From assembly GCF_013276795.1 (NCBI RefSeq), contig NZ_VMLR01000003.1:496001-560000 (forward strand): a DNA stretch of 64,000 nt, read 5' to 3'. The notes under the pieces were generated by a model. That model searched no databases. It saw only the letters and a list, made by a program, of their open reading frames with translations, and was not told the origin of the DNA. Shown here in pieces: positions 25,476 through 38,400 of this stretch (positions within the stretch are counted from its first letter, which is position 1; each line of letters opens with the position of its first letter). The stretch comes from Streptococcus sp. 2342. Its GTDB lineage: Bacteria; Bacillota; Bacilli; Lactobacillales; Streptococcaceae. The translations under genes and the position numbers were made by a program.

Positions 25476-28466
25476 ATGATGCAGGTAAAACCAGAACTGG
25501 AGATAGAAAAACAACTGATCAACCAACTGGTAACTGGGGAAAGTCAATGGACTTACAGAGATGACCTTAAAACTGAAGAACAATTATGGGAAAACTTCTT
25601 TGAAAAGCTAGCCCAGAACAACGTGACTCTATTGGCAGATTATCCTCTAACAGAACAGGAAAAACGCCAGATAAAGAATCAACTGAACTTTGTTAGCTAC
25701 TATGATGCGGCCAAGTGGTTGGTCGGCGAAAATGGCATTGCCAAGGTTGAGGTTCAGAGAGAAGATGCTAGTTTGGGGACTATCCGTTTATCTGTCATTT
25801 GGCGAGACAATATCGCAGCTGGTAAGTCCAGTTATGAGGTTGTCAACCAAGTCGAGAGAGATAAGATAAATCCTCAGGATCAAGACCGCAGGCTAGATGT
25901 GACCCTCTTGATCAATGGCCTTCCAATGGTTCAGATCGAGCTTAAAAGTCCCAGAGTTGCTTTTCTAGATGCCTTTCATCAAATCAAAAAGTATGACCGT
26001 GAAGGCAAGTTCCGTGGCATCTACTCTAGCTTACAGATGTTTGTTGTGACTAATAAGGTAGATACACGCTATATCGCTGCAGCTAGGGAAAATAAACTCA
26101 ACAAGCAATTTCTAACCAAGTGGGTGGATAAGGACAACCAACCTATAACGAGCTTGACCAGTTTTGCCCACGAAGTCCTTTCCATCCCTCGTGCTCATCA
26201 GATGGTCATGCAGTATTCTGTCCTTGATGATAGCAAGAAGACTCTCATCCTCCTGCGTCCCTACCAGATTCACGCCATCGAAGCAGTGCAAGAAGCCTCT
26301 CGCCAGCAAGCATCAGGCTATGTCTGGCATACGACAGGTTCAGGGAAGACCCTGACCTCCTATAAGGTAGCTCGGAATCTCCTCCAGATTCCATCTATCC
26401 AAAAGACGATTTTTGTCGTTGACCGCAGGGACTTGGACCAACAGACCACTTCATCTTTTCTCTCTTATGCGACCAATGATGTCATTGATATTGATGAGAC
26501 GGATAATACCCATGATTTGGTCAAGCGACTAGGAAGCAATGATAAGCGTGTGGTGGTAACGACCATCCAGAAAATCACCACCATGATGCGCAAGTTTGAA
26601 CAAGGTCTTTACCAAAGAGATGCGGACAAAATCAAGGATCTTCGAGTGGCCTTTGTCGTGGATGAATGCCACCGTGCCGTAACACCTCAAACACAAAAAG
26701 ACATTAAGGCCTTTTTCCCACAGTCTCTCTGGTATGGTTTTACAGGCACACCTATCTTTAAGGAAAATAAACGCCAGCAGGTCGGTGACCTAGCTCAAAC
26801 CACCCAGCAACAGTACGGTGACCGTCTCCATGAGTATACAGTCAAGGAAGCCATCCATGATGGAGCAGTTTTAGGTTTTAAGGTAGATTATCGCAATACC
26901 CTCATCACGGATAAATCTGAAAATGACATACCAGATACTGTCTACGAAGATGAAGAGCATATGCTGGAAGTCTTGGATGCCATTATCAATAAATCCCGTC
27001 AACAGCTAGGATTCCAAAAAGGAGTTGGTAAGACCTACAATGCCATCCTAACCGTTAAATCCATCCCTCAAGCCCAAGCCTACTATGACCTCCTCAAACG
27101 AGTCAAGGCTGGGGAGACGAGGGTTAAGGTATCGGAAAGGGTCAAGCAGGTCCTTCCTGACTTTCCAAAGGCGACCATCACCTACTCGGTCACAGAAAAT
27201 GAAGAAGACTCAAGAGCCAATCAAGACCACATGAAGCAGGTCTTAGAGGACTATAACCAAGAGTTTGATACCCATTTTACCATGGCGGATCTGCGTGGTT
27301 TTAATACGGATGTCAATAACCGTCTAGCTCGAAAGCATGACAAATACCTCTATCGAAATGAACAGTTGGACTTAGTCATCGTAGTCAATCGTCTCCTAAC
27401 GGGATTTGATGCCCCTTGTCTATCAACTCTCTTTATTGACCGCAAGCCCATGCAACCGCAGGACTTGATCCAAGCCTTTAGCCGAACCAATCGTATCTTT
27501 GATTCTAGTAAGACCTACGGTCATATCATCACCTTCCAAAAGCCCCTAGCCTTTAAGGAAGCAGTGGATAATGCCCTCAAGCTCTACTCAAATGGTGGTG
27601 AAAACGAGGTCCTAGCCCCTAGCTGGGAAGAGGAAAAGAGGAACTTTTTACGGAGTTGCAGTGATTTCCAAAATCTCATCACCGATGATCCTGAGGAAGG
27701 ACTCCAAATCGAGCAAATCTCTACACCTGAGTTGAGGAAACTAGCTAAAACCTATCAAGCCTTTGATAAATATTTAGCCTCTATCCGAGTGTACAAAGAG
27801 TATGATGAGGAAGAACTTTACAGTCAGACGGGACTTGATGGAGAGAAGTTGGAAAGGTATCTGGGACTTTATCGAAATGTCCTTGCAGAATTAAAAAGCC
27901 GAGTAGAGGATGATGACGATGGAGAGCCACTTGATATCCACTATGAACTGGAGTCTATCCAAGTGGACGAAATTAACTATGCCTATATCTTGACCTTAAT
28001 CCAAAGCCTGATTGAACAAGGTCAGAGTCAAGAAAAGAACCTAAGCGCTCAAGATAGGGAAGCCGTGGATAACTATATTCAGAGTCTTGAGAAGACCAAT
28101 CCCAATCTTGCTCAGATCATCACTGAACTTTGGAGAGAGGTACAAGAACATCCGAAAAGCTATCGTGGTCAGTCTATCGCAAATATTTTGGATCAGATGA
28201 TTGAGGCTGTCATCCAGCAACATATCAAAGTCTTTAGCAAGCGCTGGTATGTCGGTGAGGATGAACTCCGTTACTATGTCGAACACTACCGTAAGGGAGC
28301 GAAAAAACAACTAGGAGAAAGTCAGCTGACCAAGAGCCAGCGCTATCAGGACTATAAGCTAGAGGTGGCGGATGCCCTCAATCCTCTCCTCTATAAAAAA
28401 CAAATCAAGGAAGCCTATACCCAACTAGTGGAGGAAGTCATTGAGCCATTGAGGGTTGGAAGATAG
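25476..28466 (+). CDS. hsdR: Type I restriction enzyme subunit HsdR (second copy)
   Basis: 996 residues, a full-length subunit. N-terminal nuclease with D141 and E155-L-K157 in [10 protein letters not shown]2 translocase with Walker A TTGSGKT (286-292), a DECH box at 396-399, GFTGTP motif III and [11 protein letters not shown] motif VI; helical C-terminal part. It resembles the EcoR124/type IC branch and is clearly different in sequence from the HsdR at 1152. Base composition is like the core genes, unlike the AT-rich cargo downstream. Its partners are the hsdS relic at 34086 and hsdM at 35954, about 6-7 kb downstream, so the RM operon is split by inserted genes. Confidence 0.95.
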
Positions 28467-28723: not shown

Positions 28724-28866
28724 AATTTGAAAATGTCTGATTTGTCCTGAAAAGTACGTTTTAGATGGAAATAATGACAGTTGAGCGGAAGCGGAATAAA
28801 TCTTTTAAAGTAACTGTTAGAATTATTTTAAAAGTTTACATAATGAAAAATAGAAAGAATATCATC

Positions 28867-29628
28867 ATGACAAAAACATACGCTATTCGTCCACTTAGTT
28901 ATAGTAACTTTACCAATCGTGAGTTTGAAAGCCTGATGATGGATACTCATCAAAGTTTGACCACTTTTTCTAAGGCAAACAAGGACGAGGGCATGTATGC
29001 CAAGCATTTGGAGCCCTTCAAGACCAAGCTAGATGATTTTCAAGCTCAACTTGCGGCGGTGGAAACGAAAGAGTCTAGTAATCTGACAGAAGTTGATCGC
29101 AATCGTGATAGTGCTTTGGTCGGTCTCTTTACCCTTCATAGAGGATTTGCTAAGATTAAGGACGCCAAGCTCAAAGAAGCTCATGAAACTCTGAAACCAG
29201 TCTTTGCTAAGTATAAGGACATCACCAAGCACAGCAATGATGTGGAGACGGCAGAAATCAAGAGTCTTCTCAAAACGCTTAGTGAAACACCCTATCATGA
29301 GGCAGTGACCAGTCTAGGACTGACACCTATGCTGACGGCTGTGGTCAATGCTCAAGAGGAATATGACCAAGTGGAAAGTAAGGCGCGTGCTTCTAAGTCT
29401 GCCAAGGAAGTTGGCAAGACCAGACAACTCCGTACTGAACTTTCAACCAGCTACGACCTCTTTATGCGCTATACCGCAGCCAGTGCAGAAGCCTATCCTG
29501 AAAAGGAACACCTGACTCAACTCCTCAAGGAACTCAATAGCATCCGAGATAGCAAACGCCGTCTTATCACTAGTAGCAAGAAAGATAAAAAGACCAAACC
29601 AGCAGAACCAGCCCAAGCAGCAGGATAA
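28867..29628 (+). CDS. DUF6261-like protein of unknown function
   Basis: 253 residues from the ATG at 28867, where the protein begins MTKTYAIRPLSYSNFTNREF; the frame is open further upstream but has no better start. Almost entirely helical and charged, with a Lys/Pro/Ala-rich tail (about 235-253); no membrane segment, no recognisable catalytic motif. I associate it with the DUF6261 family, moderately sure. Codon use is like the core genes, unlike the AT-rich genes that follow. It has terminators on both sides, so it is a stand-alone unit inside the split RM locus. Confidence 0.65.
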   Translation: MTKTYAIRPLSYSNFTNREFESLMMDTHQSLTTFSKANKDEGMYAKHLEPFKTKLDDFQAQLAAVETKESSNLTEVDRNRDSALVGLFTLHRGFAKIKDAKLKEAHETLKPVFAKYKDITKHSNDVETAEIKSLLKTLSETPYHEAVTSLGLTPMLTAVVNAQEEYDQVESKARASKSAKEVGKTRQLRTELSTSYDLFMRYTAASAEAYPEKEHLTQLLKELNSIRDSKRRLITSSKKDKKTKPAEPAQAAG

Positions 29629-29634
29629 AGACAA

Positions 29635-29667
29635 CCCCTTAGAAGCGGATTTCTAAGGGGATTTTTG
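29635..29667 (+). terminator. Rho-independent terminator after the DUF6261-like gene
   Basis: CCCCTTAGAA / TTCTAAGGGG, 6-base loop, then ATTTTTG. The AT-rich region begins just after it. Confidence 0.85.
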
Positions 29668-29770: not shown

Positions 29771-30844
29771 ATGGAGAATTTAAATTTTAAAGTGGAACAA
29801 TTCAAAAAGAATATACTTACTAAGAAACTGAATATTTTAATTGGCTCGGGTGTATCTTATCCATCAATACCTTTAATGAGTCACTTTGCTAAGGATGAAA
29901 ATGGTATAATTGTCTCTAAAGATATAGCGAATAAAAATTTAGAAAAACATATATTGAAAGTTAGTTCTTTTTTACCTTTTAATCATAATGATAGAATTAA
30001 GTATTTTGTTGAAAAAATGGATAAACAGATTTTGTATTCTGCGAAATATTTTACTAAACTAAAGAATTTTACCACTTTTGAGATTAGTATTGATTTTGTA
30101 TTAGAACGATATGTAAGGTTCTTAGAAAAAGTAATTACATTGCTTTACATTTCAAATTCCAGAACGGTTTCAAAGAGTGTTAATGTTTTTACAACAAATT
30201 ATGATTTGTTTATTGAAAGAGCCTTGGATTTATTAATGAAAAACGATAACTTCATATTTAATGATGGTTCCAATGGTTATTTCTATAAAGTGTTAGATAG
30301 TTCTAATTATAATAAAAGTGTGGCGTATAGAGGATTAAATGAAAATTATTTAAATGAGCTTCCTTCAGTTTCCTTAATTAAACCTCACGGATCTATGAAT
30401 TGGGAAAGAGGCGAAAATAATCAGATTCTAATAAGAACGTGTACTGTTAATCACCCAGTTGTTGTTAGACCTACTGGACTTGAAGGACAAGAAACATATC
30501 TTAACAATCATTTTCATGATATGTTAAGAATATTCCAACTCGAGTTAGATAAACCTCAATCAGTGTTAATTGTTATAGGATTTTCTTTTCAAGATGATCA
30601 TATTGCCAAGATGATAAGGAGATCCTTAAAGAATCCAGAGTTAATGATTTATATATTTTGCTATGCTGATAGCGATTTTGATGTTATTAAGAAGAACTTA
30701 TCTCTTGATAATATTCCTAGGAATCTTCAGATAGTGTTACCATGTGATTTGGAAGTCGAAAATAAGAACATTTTGAGTACAAGTGGGAATTTTGATATAA
30801 GTAGTCTGACAAAGTTATTTATCATTGAGGATGATGAAGTATAA
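29771..30844 (+). CDS. SIR2-like NADase/deacetylase-fold protein, first of two
   Basis: 357 residues. SIR2-like motifs: Gly loop ILIGSGVSY (GSG at 25-27), TTNYD at 141-145 (catalytic Asn region), HGS with H206, and GFSFQDDHI at 270-278. In defence systems proteins of this type degrade NAD+ when phage is sensed, killing or arresting the cell. AAAGGA precedes the ATG. The stop overlaps the HerA start in TAATG. Strongly AT-rich compared with flanking genes, which suggests transfer. It has no membrane segment and is not closely similar to the second SIR2 protein downstream. Confidence 0.85.
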   Translation: MENLNFKVEQFKKNILTKKLNILIGSGVSYPSIPLMSHFAKDENGIIVSKDIANKNLEKHILKVSSFLPFNHNDRIKYFVEKMDKQILYSAKYFTKLKNFTTFEISIDFVLERYVRFLEKVITLLYISNSRTVSKSVNVFTTNYDLFIERALDLLMKNDNFIFNDGSNGYFYKVLDSSNYNKSVAYRGLNENYLNELPSVSLIKPHGSMNWERGENNQILIRTCTVNHPVVVRPTGLEGQETYLNNHFHDMLRIFQLELDKPQSVLIVIGFSFQDDHIAKMIRRSLKNPELMIYIFCYADSDFDVIKKNLSLDNIPRNLQIVLPCDLEVENKNILSTSGNFDISSLTKLFIIEDDEV

Positions 30845-32706
30845 TGAATCGAGTTGTGAAAAAATTAGGTGTAATCGTAGGTGTTGATGGCGATATTTCT
30901 CAAGTTGGAATGTATCATTTATCTAATGATGCTGAATATCTATGGTATGGTGATGTGTTACAAGGTGCAAAAATCGGAGCATATCTGACAATTTTGCAGA
31001 ATAATGTAAAAATTATCGCTTCTGTTGTTACTGAAAAAGTTGCTGATCAACAAAATACAATTCGAAGTACAGAATTTGACAATCGATTTTCAAAGAATTC
31101 TATAAATCGAATTGTTCATTTGAAAACTAAAGGTGTTATTGAAAAAGGTGAATTTCAAGTAACAAGTCAATATGTACCTATGATTGGTAATGAAGTATGT
31201 ATTACTTCAAAAAAAGACTTAGAATTAATATATGGGATTAATACGTCTGAGCCGACAATTTCTATTGGAAAATCAATCTTAGAAGGTCAAGTTATCCCTT
31301 TATCAATTAATAAGATTTTTGCCTCCCATATTGGTGTTTTTGGGAATACTGGTAGCGGTAAATCAAATACATTGCATAAGTTATTTTTAGAATTATTTCG
31401 GTCTGACTATAGAGAAAAAATTTTAGAGCTTTCAAAATTCTATGTTATTGATTTTAATGGTGAATATACAAAAGATGATAGTTTTGATGTCATAGAAAAT
31501 AAGAAGGTGTTTGATATAGATACTAGAAATCAAACCAATAATAAAATTCCAATCACTTCAGATTATTTATTTGATCCTGATATTTTGTCAATCCTATTTG
31601 GAGCAACAATAGCTACACAAGTGCCATTTTTGAGAAAAGCGCTTAAAATATGGGAGGAGAATAAATTTGATGGTACTAGTATTGCAAGATTTGTTGTGGG
31701 AACATTGAAAAAGATTTTAACTACTGGGAATTCTGCGAGTTTGGATTCTAAAGATAATTGGACATCGATTGCAGAGAAATACATTAACAGTGATTTATTT
31801 ACTGTCTTAAAAAATAATTTGTATTACAATTCTGCACGTGAATCCTATTTTACAAAGAGGAACGGTGATACTTGCTATATAATTAATGCGAATACTCCAA
31901 TAGAAAACTCCGAAATACATTATCTACGAATTAATGAAATTGAAGAAGCTTTATGTAATAAATTTGACGCACTCCCAGAAATTGACAAATTGAAGTTTCA
32001 TCTTGATTTTCAAAAAGTACATCAATCAGCTTGGAAATCAACAAACATTGAGCATATTAATCCTTTATTTCATAGAATTGATACAGCTCTAAATAGTTTG
32101 AAAAAAGTTGTTGAAGTTAAAGAGAGTATTGATGGAGATTTTTCCAGTCTAAATATTATTAATCTCGTACATGCTAATCAGGAGATTACCAGACTAATTC
32201 CAATGCTTATTTCAAAAATGGTTTATGATAAACAGAAAGAGAATATAAATCGAGAAGATGTTACATGTACTAGTCATTTAATTATTGATGAAGCACATAA
32301 TATTTTAAATGCTCAAAATCATTCTGTAGGAGATACTTGGCAGGACTACAGATTGAGTATTTTTGAGGAAATCATTAAGGAAGGGCGAAAATTTGGTTTC
32401 TACTTAACGTTATCTAGTCAACGACCGGCAGATATTTCACCGACTATTCTTTCACAAGTTCATAATTATTTCATCCATAGATTGGTTAATGATAATGATT
32501 TACGAATGTTGGTGAATACTATGCCTACGCTGGATAAAACTTCCTTTAATAAAATTCCTAGTTTAGGTAAAGGAGAGGCTATAATTACTGGTAATGCTAT
32601 TCAAGTTCCAGTATTTGTGAAAGTAGATAAAGAAGAAATAATTAGACCGAATAGTGATGATGTTATTTTAACAGAATTATGGAGTAGAAATGATGGTAAA
32701 AGTTAA
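30844..32706 (+). CDS. herA: HerA/FtsK-type hexameric ATPase (DUF87)
   Basis: 620 residues. Layout: an N-terminal beta-rich HAS-barrel-like domain (about 1-150), then the RecA/HerA ATPase with Walker A GNTGSGKS at 167-174, Walker B LIIDEAH (D482, E483), and SSQRPADISPT (R527) as the HerA-type motif near the subunit interface. In known Sir2-HerA systems HerA forms a hexamer that assembles with SIR2 subunits and controls NAD+ or DNA attack. Its start overlaps the stop of the first SIR2 gene by one base and its end overlaps the second SIR2 gene by 17 bases, so all three are one operon. Confidence 0.9.
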   Translation: MNRVVKKLGVIVGVDGDISQVGMYHLSNDAEYLWYGDVLQGAKIGAYLTILQNNVKIIASVVTEKVADQQNTIRSTEFDNRFSKNSINRIVHLKTKGVIEKGEFQVTSQYVPMIGNEVCITSKKDLELIYGINTSEPTISIGKSILEGQVIPLSINKIFASHIGVFGNTGSGKSNTLHKLFLELFRSDYREKILELSKFYVIDFNGEYTKDDSFDVIENKKVFDIDTRNQTNNKIPITSDYLFDPDILSILFGATIATQVPFLRKALKIWEENKFDGTSIARFVVGTLKKILTTGNSASLDSKDNWTSIAEKYINSDLFTVLKNNLYYNSARESYFTKRNGDTCYIINANTPIENSEIHYLRINEIEEALCNKFDALPEIDKLKFHLDFQKVHQSAWKSTNIEHINPLFHRIDTALNSLKKVVEVKESIDGDFSSLNIINLVHANQEITRLIPMLISKMVYDKQKENINREDVTCTSHLIIDEAHNILNAQNHSVGDTWQDYRLSIFEEIIKEGRKFGFYLTLSSQRPADISPTILSQVHNYFIHRLVNDNDLRMLVNTMPTLDKTSFNKIPSLGKGEAIITGNAIQVPVFVKVDKEEIIRPNSDDVILTELWSRNDGKS

Positions 32707-34063
32707 AGGAAAACTTATTGAAGGGGGCAGAGAATCTGACAATGAGAATGGTTTTACATTGCCTGAAGATGTCATTCAAGCAACAATTAACGGAGATTTA
32801 GTATTGTTCTGTGGTGCAGGTGTAAGTACAGAGTCAAAAAAAGTTATGCCTACTTCATTTTATACGGATATAAAAGATGAGTTGGAATATAAAAATCATA
32901 TTGAAGTAGATGATAATCTATCCTTTTCTAAGTTGATGAGTTTGTTTTGTGAAAATGTCGTAAATGGTAGAAAAGAACTATTTAAAAGGATAAATAGAAG
33001 ATTTCAAATGATCGATAATTTTCCGGAACTATATGGTATTGCTTCAGAATTTCACAAAGAAGTTGCTAAAATTCCACAGGTTGGCACTGTGATAACAACT
33101 AATTGGGATACTTTGTTTGAAGACAATTGTGATATGTTTCCAATTATTTATAATGAAGATGTTGCTTTGTGGGATACATTTGATAAAAGGGTTTTTAAAA
33201 TTCATGGTTCTATTAAAAATATAGGTTCAATTATTGCAACTGAGAATGACTATGAAAATTGCTATAAAAAATTGTCAACAAAACCTATTGGGGATAGGTT
33301 AAAAACTATCTTATCAACAAAAACAGTAGTATTTGTAGGTTTTTCTTTCGGTGACGAAGATTTGAATAAAATTATTGAAATTCTTTCAGATGATTTGGGA
33401 CAGTTTGCAAATCAATTTTATTTAGTGACAATTGATGAAAAGTGGTTGGAGAAGCACCCTAAAAATATAATCCCGATTATTACTGATGGAACATTTTTTG
33501 TTAAGTCTTTGAAAAATGAACTTATTCAGCAAGGAACTCTGATTGACAGTATGGTATATCGTTTTGCAGAAGATACAAATGAAATTTTGATAAATGCACA
33601 TTTAAGTTGGATGAATGATGAAAAGTTTCATGAAATTTTGCAAGAGTATCCTGAACTATTATTGACAATTGCCTACCAAGATGGTTTAATACATGCTTTT
33701 CAAAGATGCATAGCAGATAAAAAATCAGGGAAAATATTAATTCCAAATTATACTCATGAGGTTATTCATAGTTATTTATATTTATCTAACCTAAGGATGA
33801 GTGAAGATGAATATTTACGAGCCTACTATGACATAGGCTATTCTGATGGTTTTTTGGCCTTAGAATTGTTTGCTCGTGGAAAAAATGAAGATGCTTTATT
33901 ACCACCTATATTTTATTTTAATGGTAAAAATTTTGATGATTTAGAAACATTATTATCCTACTTAAATGATAATAGAATTCCAAAACTTTACCATTATTGT
34001 AAAGAGAATGTTATCCCCTATAAGAATGGGGGAATCCCTCATTGTATGCCATGGTATTGTTAG
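32690..34063 (+). CDS. SIR2-like protein, second of two, with extra C-terminal domain
   Basis: 457 residues. SIR2 motifs: LFCGAGVSTE (GAG at 42-44), TTNWD at 136-140, HGS with H172, and GFSFGDEDL at 217-225. After the SIR2 domain (about 1-270) comes a ~185-residue region rich in helix-forming and aromatic residues that I do not recognise and that the first SIR2 protein lacks. GGAG sits about 6 bases before the paired ATGs, inside the herA end. AT-rich like its two neighbours. Ends 22 bases before the broken hsdS. Confidence 0.85.
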   Translation: MMVKVKGKLIEGGRESDNENGFTLPEDVIQATINGDLVLFCGAGVSTESKKVMPTSFYTDIKDELEYKNHIEVDDNLSFSKLMSLFCENVVNGRKELFKRINRRFQMIDNFPELYGIASEFHKEVAKIPQVGTVITTNWDTLFEDNCDMFPIIYNEDVALWDTFDKRVFKIHGSIKNIGSIIATENDYENCYKKLSTKPIGDRLKTILSTKTVVFVGFSFGDEDLNKIIEILSDDLGQFANQFYLVTIDEKWLEKHPKNIIPIITDGTFFVKSLKNELIQQGTLIDSMVYRFAEDTNEILINAHLSWMNDEKFHEILQEYPELLLTIAYQDGLIHAFQRCIADKKSGKILIPNYTHEVIHSYLYLSNLRMSEDEYLRAYYDIGYSDGFLALELFARGKNEDALLPPIFYFNGKNFDDLETLLSYLNDNRIPKLYHYCKENVIPYKNGGIPHCMPWYC

Positions 34064-34085: not shown

Positions 34086-35315
34086 ATGATGAAACAGAGT
34101 AATCCCAGAATAAGATTTGAAAAGTTTAGTAACAAGTAGGATAATTACAAATTAGGTCAGCTGGGAAGTTTTAAATCAGGTATAGGCTTTCCAGATAGTC
34201 AACAAGGTGGTACAGAAGGAATTCCATTTTTTAAGGTTTCTGATATGAATAATATTGGAAATGAAACTGAGATGAGAAATGCAAACAATTATGTTACACA
34301 GGAGCAAATTGCGAAAAATAGCTGGAATGTTGTTAAAGACACCCCAGCTATCATCTTTGCCAAAGTCGGTGCTGCATTGATGTTAAATAGAAAACGGTTA
34401 GTTACTAAAACTTTTCTGATTGACAATAATACTATGAGTTATTCTCTTAATAAATCATGGGATAAAGATTTTGGTTTGACATTATTTCAAACGATATATT
34501 TGCCCAAGTATGCACAAATCGGTGCCCTTCCTTCATACAATGCTAGTGATATAGCGACGATAAAGGTTAATGTGCCTAATATTCAAGAACAAACTGCTAT
34601 CGGCTCTCTTTTCCGCACCCTCGACGACCTTCTTGCAAGCTACAAGGATAATCTGACCAACTACCAATCTCTCAAGGCGACCATGCTCTCCAAGATGTTT
34701 CCCAAGATTGGACAGACAGTCCCTGAGATTCGTTTGGATGGATTTGAAGGTGAGTGGGAGCTTTGTGAAATTAATGATTTAGCTGATGACTTTCAAAGTG
34801 GTGGCACTCCAAAAACAAATGTTCAGGAATATTGGGATGGGGATATTCCTTGGATTCAGTCATCTGACTTAGGGATAAATTGTCTATTTGAGATTAAAGT
34901 TCAAAAAAGTATTTCTGAGAAAGGTTTGGAAAATTCATCAGCCAAAATAATACCAAAGGATTCAATTGCGGTTGTTACGAGAGTTGGAGTTGGGAAGTTA
35001 GCGGTTTTGCGTCATGAATACGCAACAAGTCAGGATTTTTTATCACTCTCAAATCTTAAATCAAATATAGAGTTCACAGCATATTTGCTTTATAGATTAC
35101 TTCAAAAGGAGGTTACCCAACTTCAAGGAACATCAATAAAGGGTATTACTAAAGGGGAATTACTATCGAAAAAAGTATTTATCCCATCTCTCCCTGAACA
35201 ACAAGCCATCGGTGCCTACTTCTCAAACCTCGATAACCTCATCAACTCTCACCAAGAAAAAATTTCTCAATTGGAAACACTCAAAAAGAAGCTCTTGCAA
35301 GATATGTTTATTTAA
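34086..35315 (+). pseudogene. hsdS: Type I RM specificity subunit HsdS with in-frame amber stop
   Basis: The natural start is the ATG pair at 34086, behind GTGGAGA. Codon 18 (34137-34139) is TAG where HsdS proteins normally have Trp in the F..xW(D/E)xxKLG motif, so one G-to-A change explains it; the frame is intact afterwards to the TAA at 35313-35315. Two target-recognition domains are visible, separated by the conserved spacer EQTAIGSLFRTLDDLLASY and closed by EQQAIGAYFSNLDNLINSH. The first downstream ATG (34245) would drop the first 53 codons and damage the first recognition domain. Recognition domains are AT-rich and conserved spacers are not, the usual shuffled mosaic. HsdM plus HsdR would be inactive unless another hsdS is present. 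Confidence 0.85.
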
Positions 35316-35322
35316 GGAGGAA

Positions 35323-35916
35323 ATGAATTTGAATGATTTATTTCAGCACTTTGAGTTTACTTTGTTAGTTTATTCTGCTTTATTTTCGCTCATAGGTTCT
35401 TTTATAGGATTTCTATTGCAAGTAATCGTTTCAACTAGTTTATCCAATAGAGGAAAAGTTAAGATTTATATTAAGTCGACTTCCCATAAACTAATAAGCA
35501 GAGTTTGGGGATTTGATAATTCAGTAAATGGAATGGTCTTTGGAGTTCCTTTGTCAATTGAGCTTCATAATACAAAGTCTAGAAAGCAAATTATTAGAAA
35601 TATGAATCTTGTTCTGTACGATAGAGGCGAACAGGTTAGAAAGATGAGACAAGTTACTTTTTCTGAAAAAGCAAATGAGAAATTCTTTTATGGTGAGAAT
35701 GGAGCGTATTCATTTCTAATTGATGCTTATGAAATAAAAAGATTTGATCTATATTTTGCTATTTCTCAAAAAGAATTTAATAGTGATTTTGATGAGGTTA
35801 GAATATCATATTTTGATTCTAAAGATAAATACCATGAGTTTAAAATTTTTGAGATTAGTGAACCATGGATTATATCCAAGAACAAGACCGATGATGATTG
35901 GAGAGCTATAAACTAA
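35323..35916 (+). CDS. Membrane-anchored protein of unknown function
   Basis: About 197 residues. One N-terminal membrane helix (about residues 12-38: LLVYSALFSLIGSFIGFLL), then a soluble domain of alternating beta-type segments (KVKIYIKS, GVPLSIELHN, MNLVLYDRG, FDLYFAISQ, VRISYFDS) suggesting a beta-sandwich. I do not recognise the family. AAGGAGG is only 2 bases before the ATG at 35323 but 8 bases before an in-frame TTG at 35329, so TTG may be the true start. AT-rich, placed between hsdS and hsdM as a second cargo slot. Confidence 0.65.
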   Translation: MNLNDLFQHFEFTLLVYSALFSLIGSFIGFLLQVIVSTSLSNRGKVKIYIKSTSHKLISRVWGFDNSVNGMVFGVPLSIELHNTKSRKQIIRNMNLVLYDRGEQVRKMRQVTFSEKANEKFFYGENGAYSFLIDAYEIKRFDLYFAISQKEFNSDFDEVRISYFDSKDKYHEFKIFEISEPWIISKNKTDDDWRAIN

Positions 35917-35953: not shown

Positions 35954-37555
35954 ATGGAAACAACACAAACGTCCCAGTCGCTCTACCAAGCTCTGTGGAA
36001 CTCAGCGGATGTTCTCCGCTCTAAGATGGATGCTAATGACTACAAGTCCTATCTTTTGGGCATGGTCTTTTATAAGTATCTGTCAGACAAGATGCTCTTT
36101 TTCGTGGCGGAGACTATGGAGGAGGGGAGTGAGAGTCTAGAGGCTGCCCTTGAGGTCTATCGTAACTACTATGAGGATGCGGACACCCACGAGGATCTTC
36201 TTGCAGTGATGAAGGACGAACTCAACTATAGTATCAAGCCTGAGTTGACCTTTACGGCTCTAGTAGCACGTGTCAATGAGGGGACTTTCCAGTTGGAAGA
36301 TTTGGCTCAGGGTTTTCGTGATATTGAGCAGAGTGATGAACTCTATGAAAACCTCTTTGAAGATATTGACCTCTATTCCAAAAAGCTAGGGGCGACTCCG
36401 CAAAAGCAAAACCAAACGGTGGCGGCAGTCATGAAAGAATTGGCTGTGCTAGACGTGGCTGGTCATGCTGGTGATATGCAGGGGGATGCTTATGAGTATC
36501 TGATCGGTCAGTTTGCGACTGACTCGGGTAAGAAGGCTGGTGAGTTCTATACCCCTCAACCAGTTGCCAAACTCATGACTCAGATTGCCTTTTTGGGTCG
36601 TGAGGACCAGCTAGGCTTTACCATCTATGATGCGACTATGGGCTCTGGCTCTCTCTTGCTTAACGCCAAGAAATATTCTCATAAACCGCAAACCGTTGTC
36701 TATTTTGGGCAGGAGCTCAATACCTCAACCTATAACTTGGCCCGGATGAACATGATTCTACACGGTGTTCCTGTTGAAAATCAATTTCTCCACAATGCTG
36801 ATACACTAGACGAAGACTGGCCGACTCAAGAACCGACTAACTTTGATGGTGTTCTGATGAACCCTCCCTACTCTGCCAAGTGGTCAGCAAATTCTGGCTT
36901 TATGGCGGATCCTCGTTTCTCTCCATTTGGGAAACTGGCGCCCCAATCCAAGGCTGATTTTGCCTTTCTCTTACATGGTTATTACCATCTTAAGCAGGAT
37001 AATGGGGTTATGGCTATCGTCCTTCCCCACGGTGTTCTTTTCCGTGGAAATGCAGAGGGAACTATTCGTAAGGCCTTGTTAGAAGAAGGGGCCATTGACA
37101 CGGTTATCGGTCTACCTGCTAACATTTTCTTTAATACCAGCATTCCGACCACGGTTATCATTCTCAAAAAGAACTGTACCAATCGTGATGTCTACTTTAT
37201 CGATGCTTCTAAGGAGTTTGATAAGGGCAAAAATCAGAATATCATAACAGATACTCATATCGAGAAGATTCTGGAAGCCTACAAGTCACGTGAGGAGATT
37301 GACAAGTTTGCCCATCTGGCAAGTTATGAAGAAATTGTCGAAAATGACTATAACCTCAATATCCCTCGCTATGTAGATACCTTTGAGGAAGAAGAAGTCG
37401 AACAACTAACAGATATCGTCAGCAAAATTAACGACACAAATAAAGCTATCGAAAGTCAAACAGCTTCATTGCTTGAAATGCTCGGTCAACTCCACGGAAC
37501 CACACCAGAAGCCGATGCTGAACTCGAAGAGTTTTTGAAAGAGTTTCAAGGGTAA
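35954..37555 (+). CDS. hsdM: Type I RM DNA (adenine-N6) methyltransferase HsdM
   Basis: 533 residues, full length. N-terminal helical domain, then the SAM-dependent methylase with GEFYTPQPVAKLM, the SAM loop YDATMGSGSLL, and the catalytic NPPY at 303-306 (FDGVLMNPPYSAKW); a C-terminal helical tail contacts HsdS. It methylates adenine in the sequence chosen by HsdS and also forms the core of the restriction complex. Composition is like core genes. It lies last in the split operon, after hsdS and a cargo gene, an order (R...S-M) unlike the common R-M-S or M-S-R. Confidence 0.95.
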   Translation: METTQTSQSLYQALWNSADVLRSKMDANDYKSYLLGMVFYKYLSDKMLFFVAETMEEGSESLEAALEVYRNYYEDADTHEDLLAVMKDELNYSIKPELTFTALVARVNEGTFQLEDLAQGFRDIEQSDELYENLFEDIDLYSKKLGATPQKQNQTVAAVMKELAVLDVAGHAGDMQGDAYEYLIGQFATDSGKKAGEFYTPQPVAKLMTQIAFLGREDQLGFTIYDATMGSGSLLLNAKKYSHKPQTVVYFGQELNTSTYNLARMNMILHGVPVENQFLHNADTLDEDWPTQEPTNFDGVLMNPPYSAKWSANSGFMADPRFSPFGKLAPQSKADFAFLLHGYYHLKQDNGVMAIVLPHGVLFRGNAEGTIRKALLEEGAIDTVIGLPANIFFNTSIPTTVIILKKNCTNRDVYFIDASKEFDKGKNQNIITDTHIEKILEAYKSREEIDKFAHLASYEEIVENDYNLNIPRYVDTFEEEEVEQLTDIVSKINDTNKAIESQTASLLEMLGQLHGTTPEADAELEEFLKEFQG

Positions 37556-37649: not shown

Positions 37650-38054
37650 ATGGAAAATAACAACAAACGTGCCCTTTGCCAGCAACTCTGGGCGAGAAAC
37701 AAATACCTCGTTTTGAGTCATTCTAGCAATATTTACAATGAGATTCGTCAGTATCTCAAGAATAAAGAGGTGGAGGCGAGTCTAGTTCAGGAGATGATTG
37801 ACCGTGCCTGTCAAATCCCAGAACACAGGGGTCAGGTTTGCAATGCCTTTCATCATATTTGGGGCTATTTTAAAAAGAAAGCGACAGATGCCGATCGCAA
37901 GGACTATATGCTCTTGCTGGATCGCTACCGCTTTGGTCAGGCTTCTCAGGAAGACTTGATTGCTAAGACTCGAGACTTGCTTGATCGCTATCCCAATACC
38001 TATTTGCAACATTCGACATTACTGAAAGGAGACTCCCATGAGACTTTGGTATGA
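37650..38054 (+). CDS. YbgA/DUF1722 family protein
   Basis: 134 residues, the size of the DUF1722 domain alone. The segment LWARNKYLVLSHSSNIYNEIRQYL matches the start of YbgA-type proteins (K-Y-L-x-x-x-H-S), and the pattern IPEHRGQVCNAFHHIWGYFKK is the second conserved block. YbgA is found beside DNA photolyase in enterobacteria, and its exact activity is unknown. AAGGAGA lies before the ATG. Its last 17 bases overlap the next gene, another presumed DNA-repair protein. Confidence 0.75.
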   Translation: MENNNKRALCQQLWARNKYLVLSHSSNIYNEIRQYLKNKEVEASLVQEMIDRACQIPEHRGQVCNAFHHIWGYFKKKATDADRKDYMLLLDRYRFGQASQEDLIAKTRDLLDRYPNTYLQHSTLLKGDSHETLV

Positions 38055-38400
38055 GGCTTTGATTTCACAACTTCCCCGTCCTCAGCTCTTGGGGCAACAT
38101 CGAGAGTGCTGCGCCCTCCGTGGCAATGGCTGGGGCAGAAAGCATGCGACGGTGGACTATGTCTTTACCCACTCGCCCTATCGTCTCTATGCCTATCATG
38201 ACTTGATTATGGAAGAGATGGTTAAACGAGGCTTTAAGGTCAGTCCAGAGTGGTTGGATAAAAACTATCGTGGCAAGACCTGCCCTCCTTATCAAGATTT
38301 AGCTGAGGAGAAGCTGACCAGTCCAATCTACAGCGAACATGACGATGCCTACTATGAGGAGTGTCTGGACAATCTCCGAGAGAAGGGGATCAACCTATAG
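38038..38400 (+). CDS. Pyrimidine-dimer DNA glycosylase-like protein (TIGR02328 type)
   Basis: 120 residues. The N-terminal block RLWYEALISQLPRPQLLGQH and RECCALRGNGWGRKH match the T4 endonuclease V-like family that removes UV-induced pyrimidine dimers; family members of this subtype are short and mostly untested. AAAGGAGA lies 7 bases before the ATG, inside the end of the DUF1722 gene, so the pair is translationally coupled. A weak terminator follows before metE. Confidence 0.8.
   Translation: MRLWYEALISQLPRPQLLGQHRECCALRGNGWGRKHATVDYVFTHSPYRLYAYHDLIMEEMVKRGFKVSPEWLDKNYRGKTCPPYQDLAEEKLTSPIYSEHDDAYYEECLDNLREKGINL

Follow-up and report, generated by a model that had tools for sequence, protein, structure and literature searches.

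In a stretch of 64,000 nucleotides (nt) from Streptococcus sp. 2342 (contig NZ_VMLR01000003.1, positions 496,001 to 560,000; this whole stretch is called the window below), three overlapping genes, sir2A, herA and sir2B, were found which we read as a SIR2-HerA pair of the Gao19/Nezha type followed by an exchangeable third gene. In the window this third gene encodes a second SIR2 protein, which is likely a self-contained NAD+-destroying effector instead of one more component of the HerA ring, a reading to which we give a probability of roughly 0.55. Judged by its sequence the core pair is already known, and the exchangeable third gene would be what is new; a literature search yielded no description of such a gene behind herA in the parts of the publications that it covered. 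If this is true, SIR2-HerA would be a modular platform to which effectors can be added and exchanged, not a closed machine of two genes, and differences in phage range between close relatives could be explained in this way.

Organisation of the three genes

The genes lie on the forward strand in the order sir2A (29771..30844, 357 amino acids (aa)), herA (30844..32706, 620 aa) and sir2B (32690..34063, 457 aa). In agreement with a preliminary description of this locus, sir2A and herA overlap by 1 nt and herA and sir2B by 17 nt, the start of sir2B lying inside the 3' end of herA. The motifs named in that description were all located: SIR2A, the SIR2 protein of the SIR2-HerA pair, carries GSG (residue 25), TTNYD (141), KPHGS (204) and GFSFQDD (270), with N143 and H206 corresponding to the residues of the NAD+ hydrolase (NADase) motif; HerA, a HerA-type ATPase, carries Walker A (167) and Walker B (478); and SIR2B carries GAG (42), TTNWD (136, with N138), KIHGS (170, with H172) and GFSFGDE (217). 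Above the Pfam cut-off, SIR2_2 was matched in SIR2A, DUF87 (the HerA central domain) in HerA and SIR2_2 (77.7 bits) in SIR2B. The guanine-cytosine (GC) content of sir2A, herA and sir2B (27.8, 30.0 and 29.9%) bears out their reported AT-richness, compared to 41.2% for the whole window, 44.6% for the neighbouring hsdR, 42.7% for a DUF6261 gene and 45.1% for hsdM. Because the family matches run near full length and conserved relatives are many, the three-gene observation goes beyond chance.

The gene position behind herA

In a survey of 284 streptococcal genomes (HerA at E≤1e-60, SIR2B at E≤1e-20), HerA was present in 11, in 9 of which it is at least 72% identical, and all nine of these close pairs possess a third gene, or the probable remnant of one, directly behind HerA. 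An intact sir2B occupies this position in four genomes (G000, G102, G128 and G201) and overlaps herA by 17 nt in every one of these intact trios; in G177 the SIR2B gene behind HerA is decayed, with about its first 100 codons in two frames followed by an hsdS fragment. Three other genomes (G144, G225 and G114) contain an intact gene of 236 aa, here called gene X, which starts 3 nt past the HerA stop. In G183, a stretch of 31 nt matches the first codons of X at 25 positions, a likeness reached by 1 in 20,000 random positions in the locus; it is probably a remnant of X, as far as its sequence tells, and is followed by a PDC-S50 gene. Measured from the HerA stop, the start of the third gene lies no more than 17 nt ahead of it or 24 nt past it in 8 of the 9 close pairs.

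Aligned with three other proteins, X is 35, 33 and 29% identical, and all of them keep the RGH, QT.WSN (QTxWSN) and Q...E residues, positions that X shares with the EndA-like DNA/RNA non-specific endonucleases. The 29% relative is a chromosomal protein that matches Pfam Endonuclease_NS (E 1.5e-18, 67.8 bits) and, since the key residues are kept, X may work like Endonuclease_NS. It differs from the EndA-like enzymes in scoring below every Pfam nuclease model and in its distribution: copies of at least 78% identity were found in 3 of the 284 genomes, behind HerA each time, while nearly all 284 contain weaker matches, which mainly cover the catalytic part. A longer relative of X (38% identical) is present in G088 and G141, where HerA was not listed. 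Outside Streptococcus, neither a SIR2B nor an X match was detected at the close pairs in five loci (L012-L015 and L143). As a side observation, in each of two genomes (L134, 1477-3500; L135, 87-2127) an X-like HRGH protein of 241-244 aa is encoded next to a 395-aa protein that probably has membrane segments, possibly as a two-gene system.

The third genes pair freely with the SIR2A proteins, of which there are two main types that are about 60% identical. Type 1 is found in the window, G128, G144 and G225 and type 2 in G114, G183 and G201, with G177 standing apart; SIR2B occurs with both main types, and so does X. At the nucleotide level, sir2B of the window and of G201 are 96.1% identical compared to 76.6% for sir2A, and SIR2A of G201 and G114 are 98.0% identical, yet G201 carries SIR2B and G114 carries X. 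The sequence argument for a swap rests on these three loci. G144, in which a HerA 98% identical to that of the window is followed by X rather than SIR2B, was dropped as a clean third-gene swap, since its herA (L104, 8420-10264) is a mosaic of which the middle matches the window at 96-100%, the flanking SIR2A and X genes matching G225 at about 99%. Given the free pairing with SIR2A types, it is not to be expected that SIR2B has to bind one particular SIR2A; contact of SIR2B with conserved parts of HerA is possible.

SIR2B and its C-terminal domain

The AlphaFold2 model of SIR2B has a mean confidence score (predicted local distance difference test, pLDDT) of 89.8, and its predicted fold, according to a fold comparison, is closer to ThsA, KomC and DSR2 than to the SIR2 proteins of HerA complexes. 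The SIR2 domain is followed by the extra C-terminal domain that had been described earlier; it comprises about 175 residues (283-457, at 33536..34060 of the forward strand; pLDDT 93.1), somewhat fewer than the ~185 first given. This domain is predicted to be all-helical with two short strands, and an alignment of 56 relatives reveals a conserved YQDG..HA motif at residue 329. For the domain in the window's SIR2B neither Pfam nor Foldseek (E≤0.001) returned a match; a regulatory or sensing role is likely.

In PADLOC, SIR2B partially matches ThsA (71.6 bits) and PDC-S25 (71.1 bits) and reaches at best 18.4 bits against the models named SIR2, compared to 495.8 bits for SIR2A; no full-length model of the window's SIR2B was found in PADLOC, Pfam or NCBIfam. 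SIR2B falls into the wider SIR2 defence class. A duplication of SIR2A as its origin was rejected, as the PADLOC profiles and the fold class of the two proteins differ. With Thoeris ThsA it shares a ThsA-like SIR2 domain, although the PADLOC ThsA match covers only this part and ends at residue 247. ThsA carries a C-terminal SLOG domain, from which the C-terminal domain of SIR2B, predicted to be helical, may differ. A ThsB-like TIR gene was absent from the 8 neighbour proteins scanned (28765-29625, 29771-34060, 34245-35913 and 37650-38397, hsdR and hsdM being excluded). From DSR1 and DSR2, SIR2B differs in length (457 aa compared to chains of about 1000 aa) and in score (28.8 and 25.9 bits compared to an NCBIfam cut-off of 1400). 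The SIR2B family comprises 939 proteins at E≤0.001, with loci in bacteria and archaea, and Streptococcus mitis strain 850_SMIT (L024) encodes a SIR2B identical to that of the window, whose genome thus probably falls in the mitis group of Streptococcus.

These features bear on the model of the preliminary description, according to which SIR2A, HerA and SIR2B form a mixed complex with one SIR2 acting as sensor and the other as effector. The 17-nt overlap in all four intact trios and the location behind HerA of 4 of the 5 intact streptococcal SIR2B genes would suit such a complex. The predicted fold class of SIR2B is however unlike that of HerA-bound SIR2 proteins, SIR2A types that are about 60% identical are interchangeable beside the same SIR2B, the nearly identical (mosaic) HerA of G144 precedes X, and SIR2B mostly occurs without HerA, as set out below; we therefore regard the mixed complex as unlikely.

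Distribution of SIR2B and HerA

Searching a one-genome-per-species collection with a SIR2B family profile gave 92 relatives, and the 80 best of them were retained. HerA is encoded at 4 of these best 80 of 92 loci, i.e. in three streptococci and in Anaerococcus (L031), where the same order of HerA and then SIR2B is seen with a gap of 498 nt, and is absent nearby at the other 76; counting SIR2B loci with at least 3 kilobases on both sides, it was found at 3 of 57. No other widespread partner of SIR2B emerged among the best 80 of the 92 loci. Among the 284 streptococcal genomes SIR2B is present in 5, four times behind HerA and once (G215) without HerA nearby, there occupying the same hsdR-hsdS position, and in 395 genomes of the order HerA was found in 13, SIR2B in 8 and both in 2. 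Plasmid records contain 80 HerA matches at E≤1e-40 and 2 SIR2B matches at E≤1e-15, both from Corynebacterium glutamicum, in one of which the region was read and no HerA is annotated. Four plasmid regions that were read, from Lactiplantibacillus, Pediococcus, Enterococcus and Leuconostoc, contain close pairs without SIR2B. A phage origin was rejected, 50,697 phage records containing no match to HerA (E≤1e-20) or SIR2B (E≤1e-10); viral contigs gave one HerA fragment (32%) and one SIR2B relative (37%).

An obligate SIR2A-HerA-SIR2B system is rejected on these data. What stands of the preliminary description is the SIR2-HerA locus itself and, coupled to herA, a second SIR2 gene that differs from the first; the intact trio recurs in 4 of 284 streptococcal genomes. 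One fixed system of three subunits does not agree with the 5 of 9 close streptococcal pairs and the four close plasmid pairs that lack an intact SIR2B, with the SIR2B loci without nearby HerA, or with the predicted fold class of SIR2B and its near-identical copies beside divergent SIR2A types. The description had itself named the absence of one SIR2 gene from other genomes as evidence that would count against its trio, and the pair does occur without intact SIR2B.

The main rival to the preferred reading is that a SIR2-HerA pair and a stand-alone SIR2B gene, each complete in itself, are merely neighbours, gathered at a restriction-locus hotspot and sharing transcription at most. The lone SIR2B in the hsdR-hsdS position of G215, the other cargo in such positions (the PDC-S50 gene of G183 and a GmrSD-like fragment in G215) and the 76 loci without HerA are all in line with it. 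It accounts less well for the narrow interval in which 8 of the 9 third genes start, for the fact that these genes are always SIR2B or X and that the other pairs show what are probably remnants of them, and for the repeated order in Anaerococcus, and we consider it possible but rather improbable. SIR2B could also be a guard or a housekeeping enzyme, e.g. one that is released when the pair is inhibited, and not a direct antiphage effector. Its own C-terminal domain and its coupling to herA would fit, and no measurement contradicts it, whereas the patchy spread (5 of 284 streptococci) across many phyla, together with the integrases or recombinases found close to some SIR2B loci, argues against housekeeping, and direct support for guarding is lacking; this explanation is very unlikely.

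Several points weigh against an exchangeable, self-contained effector. The overlap with herA is in keeping with a stoichiometric partner as well, and SIR2B and HerA occur together within Streptococcus more often than their rarity and simple independence suggest, with 4 of 5 intact SIR2B genes behind HerA and the order repeated in Anaerococcus. Moreover, the X remnant in G183 is short, X itself reaches no Pfam nuclease model (no match up to E 5), and several loci are related and share one restriction hotspot, as a result of which the nine genomes represent fewer independent events.

The core pair and known SIR2-HerA systems

SIR2A matches the PADLOC model SIR2 PDLC04089 (495.8 bits, residues 1-354) and HerA the model HerA PDLC04097 (986.8 bits, residues 1-618), both near full length. 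The nearest solved chains are 8yhx, 8w9l and 8j4u for SIR2A and HerA entries such as 8yho for HerA. Since a SIR2 of the proper family with N143 and H206 is adjacent to a HerA-type ATPase with its Walker motifs, sir2A and herA are, on sequence grounds, an ordinary SIR2-HerA pair of the known Gao19/Nezha type, with the same gene order and motifs. The window differs from these systems in the third gene after herA and in its NCBIfam scores, which lie far below the equivalog cut-offs (SIR2_antiphage, 57.8 bits compared to 500; HerA_antiphage, 135 compared to 800 and 133.3 compared to 850).

Complex formation, NAD+ hydrolysis and phage protection are known for SIR2-HerA homologues (PMC11559045, PMC11514479), and in Vibrio cholerae immunity was abolished or lowered when either the Asn or the His in the active site of SIR2 was replaced or herA was deleted (PMC11559045). 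In Streptococcus thermophilus, cloned sir2/herA pairs are reported to protect against phages and to be sited between or downstream of restriction systems (PMC11514479), which the pair in the window likewise adjoins; such pairs are also treated in PMC12322248. By analogy, phage defence is predicted for the pair in the window.

Two observations on HerA and its surroundings may be added. Among 8 streptococcal HerA proteins, residues about 301-380, between Walker A and B, have 10-25% invariant positions, compared to 75-100% around the motifs, and this variable stretch could be a specificity region. On three plasmids, FRG-domain or Fic genes are located just upstream of the SIR2-HerA pair (L012 and L013, 3894-4862; L015, 1405-2058).

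Proposed mechanism

By analogy with the homologues, SIR2A on the HerA hexamer would hydrolyse NAD+ once a phage is sensed, and the infected cell would halt phage growth. As the first codons of sir2B lie within the 3' end of herA, SIR2B is probably made together with the pair, presumably by co-translation. The helical domain at its C-terminus would keep the ThsA/DSR2-like NADase inactive as long as no phage signal is bound, and SIR2B would add a second kill with a trigger of its own. The EndA-like nuclease gene found at the same position in related strains would provide a second killing chemistry, exchangeable by recombination. Closely related cores whose third gene encodes a NADase or a nuclease, or has decayed, form a ready natural comparison of whether each of two suicide chemistries in an operon blocks the escape routes left by the other.

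A bolder extension, which we put forward tentatively and hold to be rather doubtful, is that streptococcal SIR2-HerA systems have evolved a socket at the end of herA, set aside for a second killing enzyme that can be swapped (either a ThsA/DSR2-like NADase whose sensor domain is new or a nuclease of the EndA type) and that is recruited or armed by the HerA machine, and that SIR2B also represents an undescribed, widespread family of compact single-protein sirtuin defences. One ring-shaped sensor would then drive swappable warheads. The SIR2B family, as compact predicted NADases with an uncharacterised domain, is a candidate one-gene defence.

Restriction-locus setting

The trio is housed in a type I restriction locus with the order hsdR, DUF6261 gene, trio, hsdS with a broken 5' end, an open reading frame (ORF) of 234 aa and hsdM. 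The hsdR-like gene (25476..28466, forward strand) and the hsdM-like gene (35954..37555, forward strand) were named by reading; the hsdS remainder directly downstream of the trio (34245..35315, forward strand) matches Methylase_S and PADLOC Specificity_I. Behind SIR2B (34087-34245), hsdS is interrupted by an in-frame stop shortly downstream of its start, and the ORF restarts at 34245, while hsdS of G102 (L111) is uninterrupted (412 aa). A terminator-like hairpin (29635..29660, forward strand) precedes the trio, suggesting that the trio transcript starts after it; the support for it from a consensus scan is weak (2 found compared to 1.4 expected).

By reading, 6 of the 9 close pairs are flanked by hsdR immediately upstream and by hsdS downstream; G128 lacks this arrangement, G102 starts at a contig end and G177 has an hsdS fragment only. 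In streptococci, the gap between hsdR and hsdS thus resembles a site for defence cargo. In G215 (L112, 5569-7402), SIR2B is preceded by a fragment resembling the C-terminal part of GmrSD and by a gene of 384 aa that has no Pfam match, and the DUF6261 gene between hsdR and the trio of the window (28765-29628) has a similar gene in the same place in G128.

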